Below are positions 10,423 to 26,615 of a stretch of DNA of 37,633 nucleotides, piece by piece. Made by a program: the position numbers and the translations under genes. This DNA is from a virus. Where the stretch lies: positions 1 to 37,633 of the IMG/VR virus record IMGVR_UViG_3300027861_000084; one strand, given 5' to 3'. Within the stretch, counting starts at the first letter, position 1, and each line of letters begins with the position of its first letter. The notes beneath the pieces are model-generated. The model was not told where the DNA came from. It saw only the letters and a list, made by a program, of their open reading frames with translations, and did no database searches.

Positions 10423-13400
10423 CTAGCCCCACCTCGATCCGTCGGCGTCGTTCATGAAGTTATCGGCCTGGTACGTGTTGATGATTGCTGTGTGCGGCGT
10501 GCACAGGCGCGATGAGCCGGCCACCAATGTCGGCGGGCCAACCGGGGCGCCGTTGACAGTCAGGCGGCAGACGGCGCCCGTGTCAACGACGGCATCAAAC
10601 GTGATCTGTTCGCCGGTCCCCTCAATCTGGCCTGGCCGGTAGTGGAGCAACACAAGCGTGCTGTCCTCAGCGAGCTGCTTGGCGAACGTCCAGAAGTGCT
10701 TGCGCTCCACGTCGATCGTGTCGTTGTTGACCGGCACCGCAGCGCCAGACCACGCGGACACCTCCGACGACGGGCAGAGGCTCGGGGATGATGTCAGCCC
10801 GTCGATCAGCAAGCCCAACGTGACCACCTTGGACTTGAGCCCGCGTGAGTGCCCAATCACCCTGCCCAGTCCAGTATAGCCCGGCGTCCCGGTAGACCAT
10901 TGCCAGACGGCATGGTGGGCGGTGGTGAACTTGATCAGGTCGCCCCGCTGAATGTCGAGCCACGGGACCACATCAATCTCGACCTCCTGCACAAGTTGAT
11001 CTTCAGCGAACCGGCGCAGCGCCCAACCTAGCGCGGCGTCTGCCACGTTCGGGCCGTCGGCAACGGGAACCTTGTATTCCAACTCAATCACGCCGTTCGC
11101 TTGTGCGCTTTGCCTGTCCTGCACCGCGATCCTAAATGTCTCCGCGCCGTCCTGTTCTCCGACGATCGACACGTAGTTGGCTGGCTTCTTTGACTTGCGC
11201 GGTCGGACGGGATCGTTGCCCTCGTATAGCAACTCGGCGTCGGTGACTTCGGCGGTCCACCCGCCGCCAACAGGGGATGTGTTCACGCCCATCAACTGCG
11301 CCCGTCGATTCGTCGCGTTCGCGTTCTGCCTCAAGACGACGGCGGTGGCGGTGGCGCCAAGCATCCCGCCGACCAGTTGGACGAGCGACTTGCGACCGTG
11401 GACCAGACAAGCATCGACCTCGCCCGCAAACCCAGCATCAAGGACCGACGCGATGCTGCCAAGGTTCGGCGCCGTCGCATCGTCTACGGCATCCGAATCG
11501 ATCGCGTATCCCTGCGAAACCGTGAGCGTGTCATACGTTCCGCGGAGGGCCGTCTCGCCGCTCGACTCAACACACCGCCTCACGACGTTGGAGAGCGTGC
11601 CGCAGTCGTTGAGCGTGATCGTGGCGGTCTCATCGGCCGGGTCGCCTGGGTCAGAAAGGCTGCCGTCCACGGGTTCAAGTCCGGTCAGGTAGAGGCGGTT
11701 TTCAAGCGCCTCGGCCGCGTCGTATGTGTACGTAACGTCGCCGACTTCGACCAGCCCCGAGTCCGGCACATCGGCCGGATCGCCCGAGTCGAGAACGATC
11801 GTTAGGTTGATCGTCTCCTGATTCGTCCCCTGATTGGTCAGCATCGGATTGGTGCCAGTGAACCAATCCGTGATCGCGCGGTCGCCTGCGACGACGCCTT
11901 TGGAGAACGAGGCGACGGACAATTGAATCTGCGCCCCGAACGCCTCGCCGTTGGTCTTGATATCGGTAGTCAATCCGTTCGCGGCGATGATCACGATCAT
12001 CTGAAACTGACCAGCCTTTGCACCGGGAGCGGCGGAAGATGTCTTGAGTTGCTGCCATTCAAAGGATGTGATGTCGCCGCCCGCACCCAGTGTCGTGATC
12101 TGTGTATTCAGGGCTGACACTATCTCCGCGCGCATCTCCGTCGCCGATAGCAGGTCGCCATCCGAATACGCCGCGAACGGGAACACCGTGAAGATGTGCG
12201 GACCCCAATTGCCGGGAACGGCGGCGGACAAGCCCTCAACTCGCAGCGTGCACGACGATCCTTTCTTGATCGCGACCTCCTCGGTGCTCGTGACCTTGCC
12301 GGTGAACTGAGCCCGCAGCGGATTGGCTAGCGTCCGCTCCAGCGACAACGCTTGGAATTGCCAACGCGCCCCGACGCGATCCGGCCCTTCGCTGATCCGA
12401 CCACGCCAGATCATCTCGGCATCGGTATCCAAATTGGTCCCCGGCATGTAGCCAGACGGGTCGATTGGCGACGCCCACAACTGGACCTCGCGATTGCCCC
12501 ACCACTTGAGCGCGTTTGTGACCAGCGCGCCATTTGCCGACTCCTGCTTGTGCGGGTAGGCGTACCCTGCAACCCCGCGCGTAACGCCAGTGAACGTGTC
12601 CGGCGCCACCGTCTTGCCGGTGTAGGTCGTGTGCTCATTGCCAATCGCGAGAGGCCCGGCCGCCGGCCATGCAGACGTGTCATCAACCGGGATGATGTTG
12701 ACCGCCGCTGTCACATCGCCGCTCAACTTCGCTGACAAGGTAAACCGCTTGAACGCGTCACGGATGGTGGATGTGTCGAGCAGCTGGAACGTCAGGGAGT
12801 AGCCGGTGCCGATCCCCTTGTCGCGATCGATAGCGCCGCCGATCTTCGCAGACTTGTCGATCACAAGCGAGGCGTCTTCAGTGACGAATCCCGTGGGCAA
12901 GGTCTTGCCGGTGACAGCGCCGTCCAACCCCTCACTGACCAGCGTGGTCCACCCCTCGACGACCAGCCAGTACATCACGCCCCACCCGAACTCTACCGGC
13001 GTCCAGACGGTCGGGTCAGTGTTGGCAACGGGCGCGACGCCATCAGACATCGGGCCGCGAATGTCCGCGCGCACAAGCCCCTCGTCCTTTCGGAACGATC
13101 CGAGCTGCGGCATCCCTGAGACGTACATGTCCAGATAGCCGGCGGCGTTCGTGCTGCTGATCGGGTTGGCGTTGCTGGACTGGTAGACCCTGACGCGGCC
13201 GGTGCATAAGTACGCATTGTTGAGCAGCAGATCCGACTTCTCGCGCGTGACCCAAAGGCCAGGACTCGCGATGGCGCGATTGGCAAAGTGCGTCGCCTCT
13301 GCGCGGCCGTGGCGGAACCCCTCAAGGTTGACCTTGGGATCGTAGGCCGGCACGTCGGTCTCAATGCCGAAAAGCTCCAGCCGGCCGGCAGGCGTCAGGT

Positions 13401-13746
13401 CGCCGAAGTGGTCAAGCGCGCCGCCGGGGTTGCCGCTGAATCCAAGGACGGCGCCAAGTTGCCCCGTGAAGTTGACCTGTATCGCTGTAACGCCGCCGCC
13501 GCTTGCGCTGATGGTGACCTGCTCAGTGGTCGCGCTATATGTGATCGTGTACGTGGCGTTGAGTCCGGTAGCGGGCGCGTTGAGCAGCGTTTGGAAGTCG
13601 GCGATGGCATCTGAGAAGACGGCGGACGCAGGCAAGCGGACGGTCGCGGATACGCCGCCGCCGCCAGTCTCGATCACGGCCAGTGTGTTGGTTGACGAAT
13701 GCACCGACGTGCCGTTGCTGTAGAGGTAGGCTTCAATGTAGCTCAT
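10423..13746 (-). CDS. Large tail hub/tip protein, 1107 aa
   Basis: The largest gene. By position after the tape measure it should be the central tail hub, tip or baseplate protein. Residues 1-105 form a small beta domain (Tyr-Thr-Ile-Thr-Tyr-Ser and Leu-Gly-Ala-Val-Leu-Gly-Phe-Ser) of a kind seen at the front of virion proteins. Later parts mix beta-rich segments (Val-Ala-Gly-Tyr-Ala-Tyr-Pro-His) with a C-terminal region rich in Asp/Thr/Trp. No protease or glycosidase motif is evident. The start overlaps the previous stop (ATGA). Confidence 0.8.
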   Translation of the reverse strand: MSYIEAYLYSNGTSVHSSTNTLAVIETGGGGVSATVRLPASAVFSDAIADFQTLLNAPATGLNATYTITYSATTEQVTISASGGGVTAIQVNFTGQLGAVLGFSGNPGGALDHFGDLTPAGRLELFGIETDVPAYDPKVNLEGFRHGRAEATHFANRAIASPGLWVTREKSDLLLNNAYLCTGRVRVYQSSNANPISSTNAAGYLDMYVSGMPQLGSFRKDEGLVRADIRGPMSDGVAPVANTDPTVWTPVEFGWGVMYWLVVEGWTTLVSEGLDGAVTGKTLPTGFVTEDASLVIDKSAKIGGAIDRDKGIGTGYSLTFQLLDTSTIRDAFKRFTLSAKLSGDVTAAVNIIPVDDTSAWPAAGPLAIGNEHTTYTGKTVAPDTFTGVTRGVAGYAYPHKQESANGALVTNALKWWGNREVQLWASPIDPSGYMPGTNLDTDAEMIWRGRISEGPDRVGARWQFQALSLERTLANPLRAQFTGKVTSTEEVAIKKGSSCTLRVEGLSAAVPGNWGPHIFTVFPFAAYSDGDLLSATEMRAEIVSALNTQITTLGAGGDITSFEWQQLKTSSAAPGAKAGQFQMIVIIAANGLTTDIKTNGEAFGAQIQLSVASFSKGVVAGDRAITDWFTGTNPMLTNQGTNQETINLTIVLDSGDPADVPDSGLVEVGDVTYTYDAAEALENRLYLTGLEPVDGSLSDPGDPADETATITLNDCGTLSNVVRRCVESSGETALRGTYDTLTVSQGYAIDSDAVDDATAPNLGSIASVLDAGFAGEVDACLVHGRKSLVQLVGGMLGATATAVVLRQNANATNRRAQLMGVNTSPVGGGWTAEVTDAELLYEGNDPVRPRKSKKPANYVSIVGEQDGAETFRIAVQDRQSAQANGVIELEYKVPVADGPNVADAALGWALRRFAEDQLVQEVEIDVVPWLDIQRGDLIKFTTAHHAVWQWSTGTPGYTGLGRVIGHSRGLKSKVVTLGLLIDGLTSSPSLCPSSEVSAWSGAAVPVNNDTIDVERKHFWTFAKQLAEDSTLVLLHYRPGQIEGTGEQITFDAVVDTGAVCRLTVNGAPVGPPTLVAGSSRLCTPHTAIINTYQADNFMNDADGSRWG

Positions 13747-14396
13747 GGCGAGGTCACCCCGATCACGTCAACATCAATCCGCCACATCGCGCCATCAACC
13801 CTCGGCCGCTGCATTGCGCCGACGTAGACGTACCTCCACGTCGACAAGTGCCGCTGCCAGATCCACGCGGTGGCCGGCAGGGCGATGTCTACCATCTGCT
13901 CTTTGACGTGCAACACGTCCTGCGCGGTGCCTATGCCCTGCACGGTCGGTTGACGATGCGATAGGCCGGGCACGCCGGGACGGACAGCCCCGACGCCGCT
14001 GGACACGCCGGGGGCGGCGAGGTGACGCAACCACCCGCCGACCTCAAAGTCAGCGACGGTCGGCCAAAGGGTGCCCTTCCACGTCGACAACATGGCTATG
14101 TAAGCGGCGGGGCCGGCAGGGATCCCCGTCAAAGTGACTGCCGCCGCATTGGCCGTGACGGTTGTCAGCGCGGAGAAGACGAACACAGACAGCATCCCCC
14201 CGGCGGCGTCTGACCCGTATGAGAGGGCGGCCGTGTTCGGCGCGAACGTCACGTTATACCAAGACTCGAAAGCCTCTGACGCCACCTTCGCGTTGTTCTC
14301 CGTGGCGGTTGGCGACCAGACTTGAGGACCGGTGCCGTCGTCCACGGTCAACTGCGCCGCAGTCCAATCGTCGTTGGTAAAGATCGCCATGCCCAT
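13743..14396 (-). CDS. Tail protein between tape measure and hub
   Basis: A protein of 217 aa, beta-rich, with Phe-Thr-Asn-Asp-Asp-Trp-Thr at the start and Phe-Glu-Ser-Trp-Tyr-Asn-Val-Thr-Phe-Ala-Pro-Asn later. In siphovirus order this is the place of a distal tail or minor tail protein, so that is the working call. The start overlaps the stop of the tape-measure gene (TGATG); a second ATG at 14390 is possible. Confidence 0.72.
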   Translation of the reverse strand: MGMAIFTNDDWTAAQLTVDDGTGPQVWSPTATENNAKVASEAFESWYNVTFAPNTAALSYGSDAAGGMLSVFVFSALTTVTANAAAVTLTGIPAGPAAYIAMLSTWKGTLWPTVADFEVGGWLRHLAAPGVSSGVGAVRPGVPGLSHRQPTVQGIGTAQDVLHVKEQMVDIALPATAWIWQRHLSTWRYVYVGAMQRPRVDGAMWRIDVDVIGVTSP

Positions 14397-16285
14397 CAGG
14401 CGGTCCCCCTCGCGAGCCCAGTTCCGTTGAGACTTGAGACGGCGCCTTGCACGAAGTTGCCCAACTCCTGCACGGTGCCGACCAGGACGCCGCCCTGTAG
14501 CACCACCGTGACGTTGGTGCCCGTGCCGCCGTTTGCGGCGGAAGGCGTCGCGGCTGAACCGGTAGAAGATGTGGCAGATCCCGAACTGCTCGGCACTTGC
14601 GGCGCAGACATCAAAGCGACTTTTGCATATTGAAGCGCCGCGAACGTGGCGGTTATGCCGCCTGGAATGTTCCCCGTGGAGTACGCGAGCGCGGCATCGG
14701 CGGCGGCAACGATCGCCATGACCCCGGCGCGGGCGCGTTCGCTTTGAATTGCCCCGGCAGCACCAACAGCGGCAGCCTTGGCTGAGCTAAACATTGTAGA
14801 ATTGAGCGCGCCGCGTGCGGCCTTCTCTTTGGCCAACATGTCCAGTCGGTCGAATCCTCGCGCGATCTCTTCGCCCTCAACCCGACGCAGCATGTTGAAG
14901 CGCTCCATCTTGGCGTTGAAGTCGGCCAACTCTTCGGCCTTGATCTCGTTCTGGATCTCCTGCCTCATCCGCCTGGCCTCGCGCTCTTTCTCAATGTCCG
15001 TGATCGCGGTGCTTTTCTTTCCGCCTCCGGGCAACTTGCCTCGCTTAGATGCGCCAGCCACTTTCGAGTCGATGAACGCGCTCGCGCCAGCAAACATGCC
15101 GCCGAACCCGTCACCGACCTTGAGCGACGCAGACGCCGCTTTCTTTTCCACGTTCTCAAACACGCCGACCACTGCTTCGCCAAGATTCAGAAACGACTTC
15201 AGGTTGTCGGTGACAACAACTCGCTCCATCTCACGGGCGCCACGCTTGGCCTCTTCCATCGCTCCGGTGAAGTCGCGGGCGATGACCTTTGACGCGACCA
15301 TGCCGAACGTTGCCATGCCGGTAGTCAGGCCCTCGATCCAAGTGACCAGCGGCCTAAATGAGAACTCGACCAGCCTGATCACGACGGTCGACAGCCTCTT
15401 CATCAGGTCGATCATTCCGGTCAGACCCTCGACGATGCTGACCATCGGGCCGTCTGCCGTGTCTGAAATGCGTACCTTGAAGGAAAGCCACGCATTCGAC
15501 AGGCGGGACAGTGCGCGATCTTGCCGATCGTGCGCTTCTGTCGTTTCGCCCGTTCGCTTGGCCAGATTCTTCTGGATCGCGTTGACGATGATCATCTGCT
15601 GTTCTTGGGCGGTCAGCGATGTAGTTGTCCTATCGTTCGCTCGCGCGTAGTCGTCCAAGACCTTGCTGCTGTTGATGAACGTGCCGGCAAGCTTGAGCGC
15701 CCGCGTGTTGCCCTTCTCCAGCGCAGACGCCAACGCCTCAAGCGCCTCATCGCCAGTCTTGCCCGCGACCGTCGCGCGCTTGGTCAGCTCGGTGAGTTGT
15801 TCGGCCGTGAACTCAGCATTGACGCCGGCCAACTTCAAGCGCGTTGCGACCTTGCCGATCGATTCCGCCGACACGCCCCCGAGCGCGTTGCTGATGGCGA
15901 TCGCTTTCTCCAACCCGTTCGGACCCAGCGCCGCATCAAGACCCGCCTTCATGCGGTTGATCTGCACAGACCATTCCGTGAACTTGACCGCAGCCACGCC
16001 CACCGCAGCGCCAAGGGCAACGACGCCGACAGTTGACGCGGCGGCAACGGCAGCAAGACCGCCAGCGCCGCCCATAGCAGACGTGAGGCCCTGCACCGCG
16101 CCGATCGCATCTCCGCTCGCCATGGCGCGCAACGATCCGGCAGCAGCAGCAGCCTTGGTCTGCACCTTCGTCAGCGACCGGCCCATGCGGTCAAGCGACC
16201 CCTTGGCCTTATTGATGCTACGACTCGCGGCGTCGCGGCCTTCCACCTTGATGATCGTCGTGACGTTTGCAACACCGGCAGCCAT
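14396..16285 (-). CDS. Tape measure protein
   Basis: A protein of 629 aa. A Lys/Arg/Ala-rich helical N-terminus (1-65) leads to a Gly/Ala/Val hydrophobic stretch (about 70-110), then long amphipathic helices with coiled-coil spacing. A second hydrophobic block lies near 275-340 and an Ala/Gly/Ser-rich C-terminus follows. No transglycosylase or peptidase domain is seen. By the usual 0.15 nm per residue, the tail would be about 95 nm. It follows the tail-chaperone frameshift gene, whose stop overlaps this start (TAATG). This is the normal siphovirus order. Confidence 0.92.
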   Translation of the reverse strand: MAAGVANVTTIIKVEGRDAASRSINKAKGSLDRMGRSLTKVQTKAAAAAGSLRAMASGDAIGAVQGLTSAMGGAGGLAAVAAASTVGVVALGAAVGVAAVKFTEWSVQINRMKAGLDAALGPNGLEKAIAISNALGGVSAESIGKVATRLKLAGVNAEFTAEQLTELTKRATVAGKTGDEALEALASALEKGNTRALKLAGTFINSSKVLDDYARANDRTTTSLTAQEQQMIIVNAIQKNLAKRTGETTEAHDRQDRALSRLSNAWLSFKVRISDTADGPMVSIVEGLTGMIDLMKRLSTVVIRLVEFSFRPLVTWIEGLTTGMATFGMVASKVIARDFTGAMEEAKRGAREMERVVVTDNLKSFLNLGEAVVGVFENVEKKAASASLKVGDGFGGMFAGASAFIDSKVAGASKRGKLPGGGKKSTAITDIEKEREARRMRQEIQNEIKAEELADFNAKMERFNMLRRVEGEEIARGFDRLDMLAKEKAARGALNSTMFSSAKAAAVGAAGAIQSERARAGVMAIVAAADAALAYSTGNIPGGITATFAALQYAKVALMSAPQVPSSSGSATSSTGSAATPSAANGGTGTNVTVVLQGGVLVGTVQELGNFVQGAVSSLNGTGLARGTA

Positions 16286-17039
16286 TACAAACCTCGCCTT
16301 GCTTTCTCAACCGCCTCTTCATGCTCGCGCGCGTACCGATCGGCAAGCGCCGACCGCAATCCTACCACACCCGCCTCAACCCACGCAGGGTAGGAATCTG
16401 GCCAGTTGGTGAGCGGGGTCTCGGGTGCCGCAGCGTTTGCGACGCGACAGATCGCGTGCCACTGTGGCGTCCGCAGTTCGCTGTACGGACAGGACGGCAA
16501 GTCCACGCCCTTGATGTCGTTGACCGGCGCTTTATCGCAGTCGTCGCTTGAACAGTCGCACTTGTGGACCCGGTGCCGCAAAAACTCTTCATCAGCAGCC
16601 ACCTTCGCGACCCAGCGCCACCTAGCGATCCCGGCGAACGCTACTTGCCGGATGGGTCCGATGATTTGTCGTCGGCGCTTCCGGTCGTAGACGTAGAGGC
16701 GCCGCGTGACAAAGGGTCCTCACCATTCGACAGGTCCGCGATCAGGTCGCCAAGGTCCGACGTGATCCAGTGCGGGAGCATGTCAATATCCGGCACGGGG
16801 CCGCCGTTCATCGCGGACCAACCGGACCGGCAGACCTTCGTGTGTGCCCCGACGATGCCGGACGAGAACGCGGCCGATAGTCGGTCGCTGTTGATGGCGT
16901 GAACAGTGAACACATCGGCGCCGTCTGGAGCATCGGTTGCCAGCGTCCACTTGTTCTCGGGGGCGTTGTCGCCCCACGCCTGATCCTTCCGGTGCACGAC
17001 ATCGATCGTCTGATCGCATCGGGTGAGCATGACCGCCAT
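16285..17039 (-). CDS. Tail assembly chaperone, frameshift fusion (gpGT-like)
   Basis: This is a product of -1 frameshifting: residues 1-110 from the zero frame, then 141 residues from the frame that is open from the -1 stop at 16720-16722 down to 16285, for 251 aa in total. The added domain reads as real protein (Arg-Leu-Tyr-Val-Tyr-Asp-Arg-Lys, Ala-Arg-Trp-Arg-Trp-Val, then Cys-Asp-Cys and further Cys). An independent start for this part (GTG 16602) is less likely because the open frame and protein-like sequence extend well upstream of it. The fusion form is expected at a small fraction of the short form. Confidence 0.85.
16641..17039 (-). CDS. Tail assembly chaperone, short form (gpG-like)
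   Basis: A protein of 132 aa. The first 110 residues form a compact domain. The last 22 residues (after Glu-Asp-Pro-Leu) are Ser/Thr/Gly/Asp-rich and low-complexity, typical of the dispensable tail of the non-shifted product. Start ATG 17039 has GGAG 6-7 bases upstream. It lies between the tail-tube and tape-measure genes, the standard place of this chaperone, which keeps the tape measure soluble and recruits tube subunits. A -1 slippery site is at 16710-16716. Confidence 0.85.
   Translation of the reverse strand: MAVMLTRCDQTIDVVHRKDQAWGDNAPENKWTLATDAPDGADVFTVHAINSDRLSAAFSSGIVGAHTKVCRSGWSAMNGGPVPDIDMLPHWITSDLGDLIADLSNGEDPLSRGASTSTTGSADDKSSDPSGK
16710..16716 (-). other. -1 ribosomal frameshift slippery heptamer C CCT TTG
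   Basis: On the minus strand the bases read CCCTTTG, in phase as C-CCT-TTG with the zero frame (Pro-Leu). After a -1 slip both tRNAs re-pair as CCC-TTT, the canonical X-XXY-YYZ form. A possible 6-bp stem, CGGCGC with GCGCCG (complement of 16699-16704 and 16673-16678, 20-base loop), begins 5 bases after the heptamer. The -1 frame has a stop immediately upstream (16720-16722), so the site sits at the earliest possible crossover. Confidence 0.85.
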
Positions 17040-17072: not shown

Positions 17073-17252
17073 TTACGCTTTGCCCTGATGTTTGCGGGCG
17101 ACTTCGTTCCACTCAACCCAGCCCGCCGGATCGTCCGGTTGCGGTCGGTTGCGCTTCAAGTGCATTTGCCATGAGCGAGGTTTGGGCGTGGGCTTGGCGA
17201 GCGTTGGCGCCTTTGCCTTCTTCGTCGACTTCGCCTTGCCTGACTTGGCCAT
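17073..17252 (-). CDS. Small basic late protein
   Basis: A protein of 59 aa. ATG 17252 lies 2 bases after the stop of the tail-tube gene; longer starts would overlap that gene. It is Lys/Arg/Pro-rich at the front (Lys-Ser-Gly-Lys-Ala-Lys-Ser-Thr-Lys-Lys) and ends with a Trp-Val-Glu-Trp-Asn-Glu-Val helix. Its place between the tube gene and the chaperone suggests a tail assembly or tube-associated role, but I cannot assign one. Confidence 0.65.
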   Translation of the reverse strand: MAKSGKAKSTKKAKAPTLAKPTPKPRSWQMHLKRNRPQPDDPAGWVEWNEVARKHQGKA

Positions 17253-17254
17253 GA

Positions 17255-18526
17255 CTAACCCCACGCAAGGGCAAGCGGCACGTTGGCCGGCGCGGTCGTG
17301 CCGTTGTCGCCCTCGTAGTAGTTGGGGATCAGCTTGACCGTGTTGTACTGCATCAGGTCGCCGTCTTCCAACTGCGTCTGCTCAGCGACAACCCATTGCG
17401 GCGCACGCATCGCAAAGAACCGGCCGAGCGTATCGCCGATCTCCATCTCAACGCTGACCTGAGTGCCGTTGACGAATCGAGTAGACCACGGGTTCTCGCC
17501 CAATGCGATCACGTCAGCAGCGATCCACCTGGAGCCGAACGTCATGCTGAACATGCGGTCGCCCACCTTGCGGTCGAAACCGTAGGGCATGTTGTGGTTT
17601 TGCTCTTTGTGCGCGGGGCTGTCCCACTCAAGGCGGAAGTCACGAAGCGCGGCAGAGACACCGTCGACCAGCAACCGGCCGGCATCCTTGCTACCCAGCG
17701 CCGGAACTTCAGCGAACAACGACGGCGCCTGAATCTCGCCACCAACGCCGGGGAAGTCGTATCCGCTGTACTCGTAGGTCAGGGAGACAGTCGGAACTTG
17801 GCCCGACTGGACATCGATGAACCCGCTGATGTTCTTGCAGCCCAGGAAGTCGACCGCGAACGATGCGCCCTCGCCCGTCCATCGCAGGGTGATCGGTGGG
17901 TGTTCACTGTTGTTGAGGTACGCCACGGCCGTGCCGTAGATGTCCTCGCCGGCAATGGCGGTGTTCTGCGCTGCGTTGTCCAGCGTAAGGACGTTTCCGG
18001 CGTCGAGGTACGGCCAGCCCGTCTGGTAGTCAGTCGCCGCGTCCCCCGCGATCACGTACTGACCCTCGGCCCACGTTCCACCCGTGTAGGGAATCGTGGT
18101 GGGAGCCGGGACGCCTGCAACGTCGCCGATGACTGAGGCGGTGAGCGACAGGCCGGCGCCGGCAATCATCGTCGCATGGTTGACGATCGACGCATTGCCG
18201 GACCCCGTGGCCATGCCAAGCAAAACCGGAACCGATCCGATCACGCCAGCGTCGCCGGGCTGATTGCCAGCGATAACCGGATCGTAGGTCTTGACGAATG
18301 CTTCCAGCGACATGTTGAACGTCACCGTCCCGCTTGAGTCCTTGCCGCCAACGATGGGCGGTTGATTGCCGCCGAACTGCTGGGCATAGCGGTTCATGTC
18401 TTGGGTGACACGCCCCAACTCGGGCTGCTCAAACTCGGCCGGAACGTACTGGAACGCAGCCGCGACCGTGGCATAACTGGCCTCCCACCCGAAACCGAGT
18501 GAGCCGTATTTCGTGCGGAACCCCAT
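17255..18526 (-). CDS. Major tail (tube) protein
   Basis: A protein of 423 aa, long for a tail-tube subunit (often 150-300). It is beta-rich throughout and begins Met-Gly-Phe-Arg-Thr-Lys-Tyr-Gly. The N-terminal half contains Val-Thr-Phe-Asn-Met-Ser-Leu-Glu-Ala-Phe-Val-Lys, a pattern common in tube proteins. The second half may be an added domain. The position (after the connector genes, before the chaperones and the tape measure) supports the call. There is no separate tube gene nearby, so the identity is fairly firm by synteny. Confidence 0.82.
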   Translation of the reverse strand: MGFRTKYGSLGFGWEASYATVAAAFQYVPAEFEQPELGRVTQDMNRYAQQFGGNQPPIVGGKDSSGTVTFNMSLEAFVKTYDPVIAGNQPGDAGVIGSVPVLLGMATGSGNASIVNHATMIAGAGLSLTASVIGDVAGVPAPTTIPYTGGTWAEGQYVIAGDAATDYQTGWPYLDAGNVLTLDNAAQNTAIAGEDIYGTAVAYLNNSEHPPITLRWTGEGASFAVDFLGCKNISGFIDVQSGQVPTVSLTYEYSGYDFPGVGGEIQAPSLFAEVPALGSKDAGRLLVDGVSAALRDFRLEWDSPAHKEQNHNMPYGFDRKVGDRMFSMTFGSRWIAADVIALGENPWSTRFVNGTQVSVEMEIGDTLGRFFAMRAPQWVVAEQTQLEDGDLMQYNTVKLIPNYYEGDNGTTAPANVPLALAWG

Positions 18527-24333: not shown

Positions 24334-25863
24334 TTAGTACCTCGCGCGCGTAGATTTCGGGTGAAGATCGCGGGGATCTTCGTCGCCGACCGGCCCTAAC
24401 CCTACCATGGACAAAACCTGGCCACCATGCAATCGCGGCATGTTGCGGCTGGCGACAACCGTGTACCTTAAACTGTCAGCCGCGTGATCTGTCACATCAT
24501 CCTTTTTCACCAAACGCTTTGAATTGCCGTCGGAATCCATCTGGTATCGAAGGTTCCGCATGGAGTAGAGCAGCGGACCTGTATCATTTCCGGTTGGCGC
24601 CATCGTCTCAAGTGAGCGAGCAAAGACCATCATGGGCGGCGTTGGATTCCCGTCCATGTCGCACGGGTTCAGCAAGTCCCTGACCATCTCCATGCCGTTG
24701 GTGACCTTCTGCTCCTGCAACGATTCCATGCCAGCCACTTGCGTCGACTGTAGACAACCGCGGAGCCAGTTGTTCTCTTGCGGGCGGGCGCGGTCGCATC
24801 CGGCGAGTTCGGGTTGCTTGCCGAACGTCTTGAGCCATCCGATCAAGTGGCGCTTCCAGTGACCGATCGGCGTGCCGTCTAGCGTCGTCTCAGCGAACCA
24901 CACCCAGCGCCCCGAGTCCTCGACCTGTGCCAGCGCGGCATAGTGGTGCCCCTTGCTGCCGCTTCCCCAGTCGACGCCCAACACCAACGGCAACTCCGTG
25001 TGGTCCTGCCAGCGCCAATCAATAACGTGTTCGTCTGTGATCGTGTAGCACGTCGCCGACGACCGCAAGACGATGCCCAAGACCTCCTGCTTGTAGCGGT
25101 CGGCTGACATCGTCCCCAGCGCCTCCAGATAGGTATCCGGCAGATAGGGGTTGTCCATCGATGTCACGGTGACCACAAAGAACCGCTCCCACTTCGCCAT
25201 TTCAACCGCGTCGCCTTTGTTGGCCGCAACCTGATAGGTCTGCTGCGCATCGTGGAATATTTTTGTGATCCCGTGCAGACCGTTGGGGGAGCTGACAAAA
25301 TCTAGGCCGGGCCATGGGCAGCGGACACGGACGCGGGCCGTGAAGACTGAGAAGACCTCGTTCGGGTCTGCCTCGCTCCACTCGGTCTCATCTGCCATCG
25401 CCCACGCGAGGTTGAGCCCGCGCACCTTGGCGATCCGGTTGTACGGCCTGAACCAGCACTTGCCGCCGTTGATCAGGGTGATGCAGCCCTGCCCGCGGTT
25501 GTAGTCCTTGATCCAAGAAATGCCCGTCGCCGACTGTAGCGCGTCTAGGTGGCTGAAGAGGTGGGGGAGCAGGACGGTGGCCAGGTCAATGCCGGTTCTG
25601 CCGAGTAGCGCGCCCTCGACGCACGGGTTCCGCATCATTCGCAGGATGCACCGCCAGGCCAGCGCGTGAGACTTTCCGCTGCCCACGCCGCCGAGCATCA
25701 TCGAAAAGTGCGCGTCGTTGATCACCCATTGCAGTTGCCGTTCGTAGAGGCCAGACACGCTGGCGAGGTCGACGACCAGATCGGCATCTACAGCGCCAAG
25801 GTCTGACGGTTCCGGTAGCGCGCCGGGGTCGTACTCAAAGCCGATGTCAGGATCTTCTGCCAT
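24334..25863 (-). CDS. Terminase large subunit
   Basis: A protein of 509 aa from ATG 25863. The ATPase domain has Walker A Gly-Gly-Val-Gly-Ser-Gly-Lys-Ser (58-65) and Walker B Met-Ala-Asp-Glu-Thr-Glu (156-161). The RNase H-like nuclease has Leu-Gly-Val-Asp-Trp-Gly (295-300, Asp298), an Asp near 357 and Asp-His-Ala-Ala-Asp-Ser-Leu (459-465, Asp463). It packages DNA into the prohead with energy from ATP and cuts the concatemer. The start overlaps the small-subunit stop (TGATG). Confidence 0.95.
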   Translation of the reverse strand: MAEDPDIGFEYDPGALPEPSDLGAVDADLVVDLASVSGLYERQLQWVINDAHFSMMLGGVGSGKSHALAWRCILRMMRNPCVEGALLGRTGIDLATVLLPHLFSHLDALQSATGISWIKDYNRGQGCITLINGGKCWFRPYNRIAKVRGLNLAWAMADETEWSEADPNEVFSVFTARVRVRCPWPGLDFVSSPNGLHGITKIFHDAQQTYQVAANKGDAVEMAKWERFFVVTVTSMDNPYLPDTYLEALGTMSADRYKQEVLGIVLRSSATCYTITDEHVIDWRWQDHTELPLVLGVDWGSGSKGHHYAALAQVEDSGRWVWFAETTLDGTPIGHWKRHLIGWLKTFGKQPELAGCDRARPQENNWLRGCLQSTQVAGMESLQEQKVTNGMEMVRDLLNPCDMDGNPTPPMMVFARSLETMAPTGNDTGPLLYSMRNLRYQMDSDGNSKRLVKKDDVTDHAADSLRYTVVASRNMPRLHGGQVLSMVGLGPVGDEDPRDLHPKSTRARY

Positions 25864-26615
25864 CACTCGACCTTGATCAAGTCGCCGACGGGACCAATCC
25901 CGCCACGCTCGCGACCCTCTTTCACTGGCGTGTCTGGTCCACCGACGACCACGCGCACTTCGACCAACTTCGGCAACTTGGGCTCATCCGACGCCAACTG
26001 TCGCGCCGTCTCGATACGCTGGCATAGGCGGGAGTGCGCCATCAGCTGCTCAGCGGGGGACAGGTGCGGGAACTCAAGCGCGCCCGTGTCAGGATGCTCA
26101 ATCGGCCGGGACATGACCATCAAGCGCTCGCACCCCCACTGGAGAAACGCATGGTGCAGCGCGGCGGGAAAGCCCTCGTCAGCGGCGAGCATGATCCGCA
26201 GCTCTGCGCCGGCATCAAGGGAGCCGTCGGTCAGCAGCGGGTTGAGCATCGCTGAGCGGATCGCCTCTTCGCTAGACGGCATTGGGGCGGTCGACTCCGA
26301 AAGCGCGCGCGCTCTGACCCTTTGCATGTGCTCGTGCGCGTAGTCCCCCGCCCCTTCCTTTATGTTGTGGGCACGCCTGGAGATTTTCGTCTTGTCCGCT
26401 TTGTGTGGGCCGCGCTTCATCGCTTTGATTGGGCTGGCTGGTCCGCCCGCCTTCCTTAGCGCGTCGAGGTCAGACGACATTACGCGCTTGCTGATTTTCA
26501 GTTCCTGCGCCAGCGCCGACCGAGCGCCCTTCTCATTGATGTTGTACCCGTCGCGCAGACGTTCAAGGATCTTGGCGCGCCGCTTCCTTGTCGCCTTTGT
26601 GTTGCCTAGGTTCAT
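25863..26615 (-). CDS. Terminase small subunit candidate
   Basis: A protein of 250 aa next to the large terminase, overlapping its start by one base. Basic N-terminal helices (1-60; Leu-Lys-Ile-Ser-Lys-Arg-Val-Met-Ser-Ser-Asp-Leu) look like a helix-turn-helix, expected for DNA recognition. A central helical region and a C-terminal Val-Glu-Val-Arg-Val-Val-Val-Gly follow, which could contact the large subunit. No clear Shine-Dalgarno is seen before ATG 26615. The call is by position and DNA-binding look. Confidence 0.75.
   Translation of the reverse strand: MNLGNTKATRKRRAKILERLRDGYNINEKGARSALAQELKISKRVMSSDLDALRKAGGPASPIKAMKRGPHKADKTKISRRAHNIKEGAGDYAHEHMQRVRARALSESTAPMPSSEEAIRSAMLNPLLTDGSLDAGAELRIMLAADEGFPAALHHAFLQWGCERLMVMSRPIEHPDTGALEFPHLSPAEQLMAHSRLCQRIETARQLASDEPKLPKLVEVRVVVGGPDTPVKEGRERGGIGPVGDLIKVE

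Follow-up and report, generated by a model that had tools for sequence, protein, structure and literature searches.

Chaperone frameshifts in long-tailed phages

In phage lambda, the tape measure protein is bound by gpG and by the minor product gpGT, which arises through a -1 slip and recruits the tail tube subunit by way of its T part (PMC5009743). This G/G-T arrangement is kept across long-tailed phages although their sequences are little alike (PMC5009743), and the lambda G/G-T frameshift and its wide conservation were described by Xu, Hendrix and Duda in 2004, as summarised in PMC5009743. For the slippery sequences, the authors of PRFect report all four nucleotides at each position of the XXXYYYZ heptamers in joined phage genes (PMC10885494).

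We here describe a similar locus in a record of 37,633 nucleotides from an uncultivated phage of a divergent lineage (IMG/VR record IMGVR_UViG_3300027861_000084, positions 1 to 37,633), analysed as a whole and referred to as the window; all of its features discussed here are on the minus strand. As in lambda, a short ORF is placed between the genes for the putative major tail protein, the counterpart of the tail tube gene, and the tape measure protein, and is overlapped near its 3' end by an ORF in the -1 frame that lacks a good start, with an X XXY YYZ heptamer in phase with the short ORF. We interpret the locus as very probably subject to a programmed -1 ribosomal frameshift of the lambda gpG/gpGT type, by which both a G protein and a G-T fusion would be made. 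It differs from lambda in the heptamer itself, which is CCCTTTG instead of the GGGAAAG of lambda, and from the known G and T families in the lack of any detectable sequence similarity of its G and T.

The G gene, the slippery heptamer and the -1 frame

The G-like ORF, a short tail assembly chaperone candidate of 132 amino acids, extends from the ATG at 17039 to the TAG at 16641, is preceded by the Shine-Dalgarno sequence GGAG and has positive codon log-odds in its own frame only. The heptamer (16710-16716) is read in the phase of G as GAC CCT TTG TCA, 66 nt upstream of the G stop, and the last stop of the -1 frame, a TGA at 16722-16720, ends 3 nt upstream of it. From this TGA to the G stop the two frames overlap in a zone of 79 nt (26 codons), in which CCCTTTG is the only XXXYYYZ sequence in any phase and homopolymer runs of at least four bases are absent. 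The -1 frame is open back past the heptamer and on to a TAA at 16287-16285, the last base of which is the first base of the tape measure ATG (16285). The T-like extension (16285-16710) that would be reached by the frameshift begins with VTRRL and comprises 141 residues, which together with residues 1-110 of G gives a predicted fusion of 251 amino acids with the junction GEDPL-VTRRLYVYD. The position and phase of the heptamer, the open frame down to the tape measure start and the product sizes of 132 and 251 residues thus agree with a preliminary description made from the letters of this sequence, and its comparison with the gpG/gpGT arrangement is supported by the gene order, the T domain in the -1 frame and the in-phase heptamers of the two relatives discussed below.

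An in-phase heptamer is rare in this genome. Sixteen other minus-strand ORFs, with 5,698 codons in total, contain only 2 of them, from which the chance of finding one within the 26-codon zone is P ~0.009; shuffling G among synonymous codons, with codon usage as in the window, yields 0.017. By its length alone, the open -1 frame would be unconvincing, because the genome has a GC content of 63% and non-coding frames within other ORFs often run for 130 codons, and once for 260. In the T frame, GC at the three codon positions (0.65, 0.52 and 0.72) shows the same pattern as in the other genes (0.61, 0.48 and 0.79), and codon usage is in favour of this frame over the two others, though less strongly than in the neighbouring genes. 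Together with the T homologues, these compositional patterns indicate that the -1 frame beyond the heptamer is protein-coding.

Under the proposed mechanism, most ribosomes would complete the 132-residue G protein, while a minority, whose P and A sites hold CCU and UUG, respectively, would slip back by one base, so that CCU is exchanged for CCC and UUG for UUU, and would read the 141 further residues of the fusion in the -1 frame. If the roles are those known from lambda, G would cover the tape measure protein, around which the major tail protein, recruited by the T part of the fusion, would polymerise. We infer the slip itself and its efficiency, any stimulation by a hairpin, and the chaperone function of the products.

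The preliminary description had also pointed to a GC stem five bases behind the heptamer. This stem is present, though it carries little weight; RNA structures that stimulate the slip are not a universal part of lambda-type frameshifts. The predicted hairpin (16670-16706) has a 6-bp core of CGGCGC (16704-16699) and GCGCCG (16678-16673), is separated from the heptamer by a spacer of 5 nt, and may stimulate the slip. Its folding z-score is -2.8 for 47 nt and -1.4 to -1.8 for 70 nt, and equally stable folding is found in about 10% of the 47-nt stretches in the surrounding, GC-rich 19 kb. As such stability is unremarkable for this genome, we dropped the hairpin from the evidence for the frameshift.

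Conservation in two distant relatives

Two IMG/VR records from samples other than that of the window, IMGVR_UViG_3300013126_000135 (L002) and IMGVR_UViG_3300011114_000838 (L007), share the locus. Both are distant kin, with a homologous terminase about 40% identical to that of the window and a homologous putative major tail protein 26-28% identical. The order putative major tail protein, G, T and tape measure is common to all three viruses, and T is in the -1 frame of G in each of them. The T of the window matches that of L002 with 36% identity over 83 residues (E 1e-12), a profile built from these two sequences retrieves the same domain in L007 (E 1.9e-44), and T identity between the window and the two relatives is 34-36%. 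The motifs CxC....C, CP and WP[DE]xYPAW are found in T of all three.

By contrast, G of L002 and L007 (158 and 159 amino acids, 50% identical to each other) has no homology to G of the window that is detectable by sequence, and the slippery site is likewise a different one. In both relatives G ends in ACC TGG GGA AAC TGA, with the canonical heptamer G GGA AAC in phase and abutting the stop codon, and T would continue in the -1 frame as GGG AAA CTG (G-K-L). A strong 12-bp stem stands behind the heptamer in both, as a stem also follows the heptamer in the window, but in the relatives it starts at the G stop codon itself, leaving no spacer (L002 4923-4972; L007 10146-10195). The stem includes one compensatory pair (C-G to U-A), and sliding its partners breaks the pairing; its pair count is reached by 275 of 500 shuffles and, with two sequences only, is not significant.

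The comparison with relatives that the preliminary description had proposed, in search of a conserved heptamer, thus speaks for the frameshift: judged from these sequences, the -1 arrangement with an in-phase slippery heptamer is conserved, although the sequence of the heptamer and its position are not (CCCTTTG versus GGGAAAC). This suggests that a frameshift can persist through the replacement of its slippery heptamer. We regard it as rather probable, though with clearly less confidence than the frameshift as such, that the three viruses represent an undescribed family of G-T chaperones, recognisable by the T motifs given above, in which the slippery site changed between lineages. If so, the frameshift would have been maintained while its signal was exchanged: two members have GGGAAAC at the stop and a 12-bp stem behind it, whereas the third has CCCTTTG, 66 nt ahead of its G stop.

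Alternative explanations

T might instead be a separate protein of 105 amino acids, made without any frameshift by ribosomes that terminate at the G stop (16641) and reinitiate at the GTG at 16602; the heptamer would then be a product of chance. The preliminary description had held that independently started frames would speak against a frameshift; when a good start for T was sought in the window, this GTG, 38 nt past the G stop and about 107 nt past the slip site, was the only start in the T frame behind the slip. The strongest T homology, from RHRVHKCDC onward, indeed lies downstream of it, and in L002 and L007, too, a GTG in the T frame stands within a few bases of the G stop, from which, on sequence alone, reinitiation may take place in these relatives. 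Shuffling gives no significance to the conservation of the residues from the heptamer to GTG 16602 (P 0.25 and 0.84), which could be read in favour of a separate T; we use this result for neither side. However, GTG 16602 is without a properly spaced Shine-Dalgarno sequence: the strongest anti-Shine-Dalgarno pairing available to it, at a distance of 12 nt, has -4.9 kcal/mol, compared to -6 to -10 at 4-8 nt for G, the tape measure gene, the major tail protein gene and most others. A separate T likewise leaves to coincidence both that the -1 frame is open back past the heptamer and that an in-phase slippery heptamer is found in the short overlap zone of three out of three viruses, for which the chance in the window alone is P ~0.01-0.02. 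We therefore consider a separately initiated T improbable.

A fusion could also be made by another route, through transcriptional slippage or through a slip elsewhere in the overlap, and other slip motifs have been found in chaperone genes of phages (PRFect, PMC10885494). The overlap zone, however, offers neither a homopolymer of at least four bases nor any XXXYYYZ candidate besides CCCTTTG. Transcriptional slippage as a rule requires long runs of A or T, and we judge such routes very unlikely. The same applies with still greater force to a sequencing or assembly error that would have broken one continuous gene: the window is a single metagenomic record, but G and T have the same -1 arrangement in L002 and L007, which come from other samples. 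The programmed ribosomal frameshift at CCCTTTG is accordingly the reading that we prefer. CCCTTTG itself is acceptable as a phage site because all four nucleotides have been reported for each heptamer position (PMC10885494), although no phage paper naming it as a slip site was found in the open-access literature; the sole match was a West Nile virus paper, in which it is a proposed site (PMC3574045).

Known families, lineage and neighbouring genes

Scans of G and T against Pfam and PHROGs, and a search of the INPHARED phages with both, gave no matches and no significant match, respectively. T and terminase profiles found no matches in GTDB genomes, and searches of the PDB by sequence retrieved nothing relevant. 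AlphaFold2 models were too poor for a test of the fold (pLDDT 44 for G and 42 for T), and the fold search with G gave no usable match. DUF1799 (PF08809), which we had considered on account of its WPENWPAV-like motif, was rejected, as its profile matched neither the window nor the L002 record.

The frameshift at this locus, if correctly read, would add to the G/G-T arrangement a phage lineage with chaperone genes that match no family library, and it names a two-frame gene of a kind that automatic pipelines would overlook or divide in two. The understanding of the frameshift mechanism is unchanged; the arrangement is already known from many long-tailed phages.

The terminase large subunit (24334-25866) has annotated phage matches only at 22-25% identity, to Halorubrum tailed virus 29 and a Rhodobacteraceae phage, and because of these low values we regard the lineage as one without a close named relative. 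The tape measure protein (14396-16285, 629 amino acids) is identified by a match to phrog_1272 (tape measure, E 3.6e-6); a further match to TMP_N (E 0.003) is below the cut-off. The gene at 17255-18526 (423 amino acids) has homologues immediately upstream of G in both L002 and L007 and is named as putative major tail protein from its position, size and shared gene order.

Downstream of the tape measure gene, a protein of 1107 amino acids is encoded (10423-13746), of which the region around residues 340-393 has short, weak matches to phrog_22827 and phrog_708, the latter a baseplate wedge family. In the window, a small Lys/Pro-rich ORF (17073-17252, inside a 63-aa ORF at 17073-17264) separates G from the gene for the putative major tail protein; the corresponding gap in L002 and L007 measures only about 40-45 nt.
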